Shown here: positions 9,951-10,195 of the stretch, in pieces
How the letters are laid out: each line of letters starts with the position of its first letter
How positions within the stretch are numbered: the first letter of the stretch is position 1
Assembly: GCA_937128795.1 (NCBI GenBank)
Contig: CAKZMQ010000001.1
Location: 124,001-188,000, forward strand
DNA: 64,000 nucleotides
Direction: 5' to 3'
Source of the DNA: an uncultured Solirubrobacterales bacterium
Lineage (GTDB): Bacteria; Actinomycetota; Thermoleophilia; Solirubrobacterales; JACPNS01
The notes under the pieces: model-generated
Told to the model about the DNA's origin: nothing
The model's input: only the letters and a program-made list of their open reading frames with translations
Databases searched by the model: none
Position numbers and translations under genes: made by a program

Positions 9951-10021
9951 CCGAACAACACGAAGTCAACCCTCGCCCAGACAGAACCGTCTCCCCCACC
10001 CACCCGAACAACACGAAGTCA
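9951..10021 (+). repeat. 18-bp direct repeat, two copies
   Basis: CCGAACAACACGAAGTCA occurs at 9951-9968 and again, identically, at 10004-10021. The last four bases of the second copy are the outer end of the large inverted repeat that follows. Confidence 0.8.
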
Positions 10022-10124
10022 GAGAGCCTGTGTGTGTTTTTGACAAGGACGCACAAGGCGAAGCGGCCAATTCGGCCGTGAGCCGCGGAGGACGCAGCTC
10101 AAAAACACACACAGGCACTCTGAC
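10018..10124. repeat. 107-bp element with 26-bp terminal inverted repeats abutting tRNA-Gln
   Basis: The left arm 10018-10043 (GTCAGAG...TTTTTGA) and the right arm 10099-10124 are inverted copies with a single mismatch in 26 bases. The 55-base centre holds a smaller palindrome, CGGCC-aattc-GGCCG. The right end coincides with the 3' end of the tRNA-Gln gene. This could be a miniature inverted-repeat element, an over-large tRNA transcription terminator, or a structured small RNA. The arms contain a (TG)n/(CA)n tract. No open reading frame inside looks genuine. Confidence 0.75.
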
Positions 10125-10195
10125 TGGGGCACCTGGACTCGAACCAGGGATCCCGGGACCAAAACCCGGAGCCTTACCAACTTGGCTATGCCCCA
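10124..10195 (-). tRNA. tRNA-Gln (anticodon UUG)
   Basis: Read on the minus strand the gene folds into a full cloverleaf. The acceptor pairs TGGGGCA with TGCCCCA, and the D stem GCC/GGC encloses AAGTTGGTAA. The anticodon stem CCGGG/CCCGG carries loop TTTTGGT, giving anticodon TTG. The T stem CCTGG/CCAGG carries loop TTCGAGT. The first pair U-A and the overall sequence match bacterial tRNA-Gln. The 3' CCA is not encoded. It reads Gln CAA codons. Confidence 0.96.

Follow-up and report, generated by a model that had tools for sequence, protein, structure and literature searches.

Repetitive extragenic palindromes (REP), bacterial interspersed mosaic elements (BIME), and repeats mobilised by REP-associated tyrosine transposases (RAYT) are short dispersed extragenic palindromes that often lie behind genes. 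Miniature inverted-repeat transposable elements (MITEs), ERIC, NEMIS, and the Rickettsia palindromic elements are non-coding dispersed palindromes of more than 100 nt with conserved terminal repeats. Integron attC sites stand behind genes, depend on structure more than on arm sequence, and fold on the bottom strand, while intrinsic terminators without a U-tract have been proposed for high-GC actinobacteria. The subject of this report is an inverted repeat at the 3′ end of a tRNA-Gln gene in a 64,000-nucleotide stretch of DNA, here called the window, from an uncultured Solirubrobacterales bacterium (assembly GCA_937128795.1, contig CAKZMQ010000001.1, positions 124,001 to 188,000). This repeat belongs to a dispersed family of hairpins in which a conserved core of about 67 nt lies between locus-specific arms. 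Taken jointly, this identity and the more stable folding, in most copies, of the strand antisense to the upstream gene are highly probable.

The hairpin family resembles REP and BIME in being dispersed, extragenic, palindromic, and often behind genes. Unlike REP/RAYT repeats, however, its arms differ between copies and its loop is conserved. It shares with terminators lacking a U-tract a GC-rich hairpin directly behind a stop codon or tRNA, but it has a conserved interior, many copies, and a better antisense fold. Like MITEs, ERIC, and NEMIS, it is non-coding, palindromic, dispersed, and longer than 100 nt, whereas its ends vary from locus to locus and in many cases match the 3′ end of the host gene. 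It is similar to attC in its position behind genes, in the precedence of structure over arm sequence, and in bottom-strand folding, but the window copy, inspected by eye, has no GTTRRRY core sites at its hairpin ends, and the upstream genes are by our own reading housekeeping genes rather than cassettes.

PMC6649704 names the Rickettsia palindromic elements and describes concerted coding palindromes in nematomorph mitochondria, whose arms overlap coding sequence and are kept matched. The arms of the hairpin family likewise overlap coding sequence and are kept matched; the nematomorph palindromes are instead mitochondrial and within genes, and the passages on them mention no conserved dispersed core. 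No description of the hairpin family was found in the part of the open-licence literature covered by the matches listed. The family is apparently undescribed, and it lacks at least one defining feature of each of REP/RAYT repeats, MITEs, intrinsic terminators, and attC sites. It marks the 3′ borders of genes across a bacterial order in a manner that matches no known repeat and no ordinary terminator.

Structure of the Hairpin beside tRNA-Gln

The whole hairpin spans positions 10017-10125 of the window and is read on the plus strand, which is antisense to tRNA-Gln and is the better-folding strand in the family, as defined by the inverted repeat, the folds, and the strand statistics. Its arms on the plus strand (10017-10043 and 10099-10125) are 27 nt each, 96% complementary, and spaced by 55 nt. 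The tRNA-Gln(TTG) called by ARAGORN and Rfam at 10124-10195 on the minus strand lacks an encoded CCA. Because this gene starts at 10124, the right arm overlaps it by two bases, the discriminator base and one acceptor base. The fold on the tRNA strand has an energy of -64.0 kcal/mol (z -6.5) and that on the plus strand -64.6 kcal/mol (z -9.9); since none of 200 shuffles is as stable on either strand, this stability lies far past chance.

The conserved core (10036-10105, minus strand) matches covariance model R1 at 75.5 bits; the model is written in gene sense, and the window copy is among the 19 copies used to build it. Within the core, a CGGCC/GGCCG stem (10064-10078, plus strand), which forms the inner palindrome, covaries across copies. 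It sits in an inner hairpin (10057-10084, plus strand) that also has GGC/GCC pairs and a GAAG/TGA internal loop in the sequence and consensus. GGAC/GGAC and GAAG/TGA can possibly be read as tandem G-A pairs, and those of the internal loop may be sheared. A scan of the window for terminator-like sites with a T-run found none at this copy of the hairpin on either strand.

The initial annotation, made from the sequence alone, had described an inverted repeat ending at the tRNA 3′ end, a second palindrome inside it, and an 18-base direct repeat beside it, all of which were confirmed. The direct repeat, CCGAACAACACGAAGTCA, occurs on the plus strand at 9951-9968 and at 10004-10021, the second copy overlapping the end of the arm, and is part of a 29-nt pair. 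Both copies lie on the tRNA-distal side of the hairpin only, whereas direct target duplications of the MITE kind would flank it on both sides; no role was found for them.

Conserved Core and Its Distribution

The repeated unit of the family is the interior. In the window's own genome (2.43 Mb in 26 contigs), neither the tRNA-distal arm nor its partner has a further copy. A stretch of 67 nt of the interior recurs with 90% identity at C15:102915-102980, directly behind tRNA-Gly(TCC), where it is flanked by different but mutually complementary arms. The arms were therefore rejected as the repeated unit, since the interior alone recurs. The proposed search for arm copies abutting tRNAs thus yielded no arm but one interior copy behind a tRNA.

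A DNA search finds the interior in 6 of 61 genomes (60 relatives and the own genome). Model R1 extends this to 110 of 232 genomes in the window's order, in 41 of 54 genera, at E ≤ 0.01, and the element is accordingly neither unique nor unconserved. Nor is its conservation confined to a terminator stem, since what the copies share is the interior sequence. Three genomes of genus g6 carry at least 20-22 copies each. In these large searches the best 12-22 candidates per genome were scored under strict filters, so that the counts from them are lower bounds and the g6 counts reach that limit. A 1.15-Mb contig of genome G010, searched whole, contains 14 copies of at least 35 bits.

Outside the order the core is rare. 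A sample of the class gives R1 matches at E ≤ 1e-5 in 62 of 399 genomes, of which 60 belong to the window's order and 2 to a single further genus, and a sample of the phylum gives matches in 2 of 396 genomes, both of the window's order. One exact core pattern matched 36 contigs of the genome_contigs collection: 24 are titled Thermoleophilia, Solirubrobacterales, one of their families, or Conexibacter, 9 are titled Actinomycetota alone, and 3 from one genome (G010) are titled Actinomycetes, the assignment to Solirubrobacterales resting on contig titles. A search of viral contigs with one exact pattern found no core, and phage origin was rejected on that count.

At the gathering threshold, Rfam reports tRNA matches alone in the window and no family for the hairpin. 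Across eight loci at E ≤ 1 it gives tRNA, tmRNA, and four sub-threshold matches, with no family match for the element; one sub-threshold match, to sX4 (E 0.31, L057:1380-1529), reaches over the edge of an element. Two elements stand in tandem behind a single gene, some 80-100 nt from each other, at L042 (G010:C4:268330 and 268431), L188 (2235 and 2319), and L255 (5755 and 5853).

Position and Orientation behind Genes

In the five genomes of the window's genus, the family comprises eight strong copies (at least 47.9 bits) and one decayed copy (29.4 bits), and each of the nine immediately follows a tRNA on the same strand. The hosts are tRNA-Gln in G000, G001, and G004 (the decayed copy), tRNA-Lys in G000, G001, and G004, tRNA-Gly in G000, and tRNA-Arg in G002 and G003. 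In this search, 16 of 25 rows fell below 24 bits and were taken as chance; five of them were inspected, two misplaced at contig ends, and no tRNA stood beside them. Comparison of the same tRNA locus in relatives shows the tRNA-Gln copy also in G001 and a decayed one in G004. In the decayed copy (L072, G004:C10:5013-5074), the left arm is still like that of G001, the core and right arm are eroded, and the hairpin is lost.

For statistics, 77 copies were listed and 71 kept, two near contig ends and four duplicates being dropped; excluded earlier were 12 matches below 35 bits, the duplicate records L173, L191, L198, and L060, the truncated L185, and one 22-bit match. Genes were called with a home-made caller trained on codon-position GC. 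A co-directional gene precedes the element in 64 of these 71 non-redundant copies from many genera, and in 57 of the 64 the gene ends no more than 22 nt before the core. Upstream of the 64 are 11 tRNAs (8 in the window's genus and 3 tRNA-Ser elsewhere) and 53 coding sequences. Among the 71, one copy lies between divergent genes, and in six the genes called on either side are both on the opposite strand. The upstream proteins, which by our own reading include L31, NusG, S7, NAD kinase, SecA, DnaN, and LexA, are taken to be housekeeping.

The initial annotation had suggested a miniature inverted-repeat element that targets tRNA ends. A multicopy family behind tRNAs does exist in the window's genus, but its repeated part is the interior and not the arms, and outside the genus most copies follow protein genes.

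Arm Pairing and Turnover

The arms are kept complementary across copies. In the 71 copies the mean arm duplex energy is -40.4 kcal/mol for matched arms and -26.1 kcal/mol for swapped arms. Among 56 aligned matches (52 distinct), pairing holds in 94% of cells; changes on both sides are seen in 12 of 13 pairs, with 125 two-sided cells against 38 in shuffles and only 9 one-sided cells, and pairing falls to 24-41% when the structure is slid along the alignment. These covariation figures flatter the structure somewhat because the alignment is fitted to the model and its rows are related. An ungapped palindrome survey of gene ends was uninformative, as the arms carry bulges.

Arm sequence turns over while the element is kept behind the same gene. 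Behind tRNA-Lys, three species have in common the core signature and a stem base, CATTT/AAATG, and the intervening 23-24 nt are different in every species and complementary in every species. Arms have also changed at tRNA-Arg in two species and at protein loci presumed to be rpsG and L31, compared within one genus, and nusG and NAD kinase, compared between two genera. Several g6 copies have a common CTGACGG..CGTCAG base, their arms otherwise differing between copies.

The pairing often reaches into the gene itself. At tRNA-Arg in G002 and G003 it extends 10-11 bases into the tRNA. Gene bases in Watson-Crick pairs number at least 3 in 39 of 58 copies, at least 6 in 23, and at least 10 in 15; the longest such pairings with the opposite arm are 15 and 22 bases (L168 and L179), the 22 behind one L179 gene. 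The arm score exceeds the 99th percentile of swapped arms in 40 of the 58 copies and does not in the other 18, some of which have many gene-base pairs. The likeness to tRNA is limited to the arm that can match the tRNA end, and the suggestion of a tRNA-derived structured RNA is not upheld. Since one arm is pinned by tRNA or coding sequence, the compensatory series can test whether selection or template switching maintains palindromes.

Occupied and Empty Sites

Ten orthologous gene ends that lack the core also lack a palindrome. Six are protein loci in G010 (orthologues of L172, L052, L179 twice, L182, and L054), and four are tRNA sites, namely tRNA-Arg in G000 and G004 and tRNA-Gly in G001 and G004, where the next ATG is one base on. 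An inverted-repeat score, which is crude and fails to tell every occupied site from an empty one, is 5-8 at these empty sites and 12-25 at the same loci when occupied; background gene ends have a mean of 8, a 95th percentile of 11, and a maximum of 18. The tRNA-Gln site with the decayed copy in G004 scores 6. G010 does carry a copy behind NAD kinase, the L168 orthologue.

The missing palindrome at empty sites implies that no ready-made terminator served as a target there and that core and arms are gained or lost together. Insertion of the core into pre-existing terminators is unsupported, as sites without the core are also without the palindrome. Loss of the element in those lineages may account for the empty sites.

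Folding Strand

The strand antisense to the gene folds more stably in 63 of the 71 copies, by a mean difference of 7.5 kcal/mol, whereas control gene ends divide into 108 antisense-better and 141 sense-better. On the antisense strand, purines make up 75% of the core bases left unpaired. In trimmed arms the gene-strand mismatches are A-C in 66 cases and G-T in 17, with 33 copies against 4 and 34 ties; a gene-strand A-C mismatch is a wobble pair on the opposite strand. The stems of tRNAs serve as control and give, the other way round, 63 G-U against 3 A-C (109 of 127 tRNAs). Wobble direction and strand energy together offer a cheap test for the working strand of a palindrome.

A Sister Family behind Other tRNAs

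Five other tRNAs of the sister species G001 and G004 (Cys twice, Ile, Val, and Ser) are followed directly by a longer hairpin with a related inner motif (L153:953-1050, L118:1926-2026, L128:776-873, L147:599-699, and L146:4543-4635). These five hairpins were used to build a second model, R2 (type B), which matches 16 of 232 genomes in 4 of 54 genera, with 16 copies in G003 and 1 in the window's own genome (G000:C18:57479-57579). A co-directional gene or tRNA is called upstream in 19 of 24 fetched loci. The antisense strand is the more stable in 23 of 23 correctly placed loci, a count that includes some loci used in model building and omits the misplaced L271, which lies at a contig end and has the opposite fold.

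Proposed Role and Alternative Explanations

The best overall explanation, which joins the identity of the family and its strand with a proposed role and a proposed origin of the copies, has a probability of roughly 0.5. In it, the hairpin family would act in cis at the 3′ border of genes. The antisense strand, either as single-stranded DNA or as RNA from transcription that enters the gene from its downstream side, would fold into a stable hairpin; the folded core would be recognised by a cellular factor, and the recognised hairpin would block or mark polymerases coming at the gene from behind. The data fit either RNA or single-stranded DNA as the acting molecule. This boundary role is put forward tentatively at somewhat less than even odds. 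New copies may form by the arrival of a core on the 3′ side of a gene, whose end is then copied by snap-back or template switching into the second arm, a route that is a little more doubtful. It is rather unlikely, though conceivable, that all of this defines a new element class, an antisense-folded core behind genes that is completed by copying the gene 3′ end into its second arm. Such an element would be a mirror of its host gene, re-copied as the gene evolves, and would exist in at least two core types.

Several observations weigh against the antisense-folding boundary element. The wobble asymmetry varies with arm trimming: the G-T:A-C counts are 7:35, 17:66, and 89:107 along the trimming series, and the last, from permissive extension, compares with 325:396 in swapped arms. 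The counts are 65:129 in the arms of the 71-copy energy set, 48:68 for isolated mismatches (p = 0.08; per copy 19 against 23), and 21:39 in genus g6 with 68:68 elsewhere. In the pairs of the core model, the gene strand has 11 G-U cells against 6 A-C. A sigma-70-like -10 box is found on the antisense side of none of the 71 copies, where shuffles give 2.3, and an antisense promoter was rejected. Seven of the 71 copies have no preceding co-directional gene. A convergent downstream neighbour in 30 of 64 copies, against 32% expected (genome-wide, G010 C1; p = 0.015), speaks for the boundary role, but this excess is weak; within G010 C1 the figure is 7 of 14 (p = 0.16), and R2 downstream neighbours are co-directional in 20 of 24. 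Low inverted-repeat scores also occur at occupied sites (L177 8, L164 10, L184 12; in G010, S7 8, glutaredoxin 8, and nusG 10). No protein partner was found, and a pure roadblock does not explain why the core is conserved.

The main rival is a selfish, non-autonomous mobile hairpin that targets gene 3′ ends, in which the core moves, the arms are by-products of integration that copy the target in inverted form, and the host gains nothing; a boundary element could also be mobile in this way. Dispersal behind unrelated genes, presence and absence that vary among species of one genus, tandem copies, gene bases paired with the opposite arm over 15 and 22 positions, and a second type of core at similar sites all accord with such an element. 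It accounts well for dispersal but not for the upkeep of pairing at shared loci, where some elements are retained across species or genera with re-paired arms, which is not expected of a decaying copy. The Y1 (RAYT) transposase, sought as PF01797 at E ≤ 0.01, is absent from all nine genomes tested outside the own genus g1, and RAYT mobilisation was rejected for these nine; PF01797 matches occur in all five g1 genomes, over the cut-off in three. The core is also missing from viral contigs by one exact pattern. A purely selfish hairpin is judged rather unlikely.

A sense-strand function would make the hairpin an unusually large terminator or a 3′ stabiliser of the upstream tRNA or mRNA, much as the oversized terminator raised in the initial annotation. 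The location right after genes and tRNAs with a single orientation, the great stability, the presumed housekeeping nature of the upstream genes, and the slight excess of gene-strand G-U over A-C in core pairs are as expected of it. Yet the sense fold is the worse one in 63 of 71 copies, the trimmed-arm mismatches on the sense strand are A-C rather than G-U, and a terminator has no need of a conserved interior. A sense-strand terminator is disfavoured because most copies fold better antisense and no T-run site stands at the window hairpin, and it is quite improbable. Lower still is the chance of a mutational artefact, in which a quasi-palindrome around a repeated core is made ever more perfect by template switching and serves no function. 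Two-sided changes do far outnumber one-sided ones (125 against 9 cells), and template switching is described in PMC6649704 as a route to perfect inverted repeats, but the fixed orientation behind genes, the conserved core loops, and the strand asymmetry are all unpredicted by it.

Other Repeats at tRNA Ends

In G004, tRNA Gly-GCC, Leu-TAA, and Ser-GCT (L118, L119, and L130) share a following stretch of about 105 nt that holds a long hairpin, as would result from the entry of a single element at the 3′ end of each of these tRNAs. In the own genome, short hairpin repeats that resemble one another, of the type GTCGCCGCC..GGCGAC, stand behind tRNA Ala-GGC, Asn, Val-CAC, and Val-TAC (L105, L097, L091, and L111), the one at Val-TAC being a diverged form. 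At L013:4735-4834, three tandem copies of a 31-bp repeat run into the opening bases of tRNA-Gly(TCC), which looks like a tandem duplication of the 5′ end of this tRNA.
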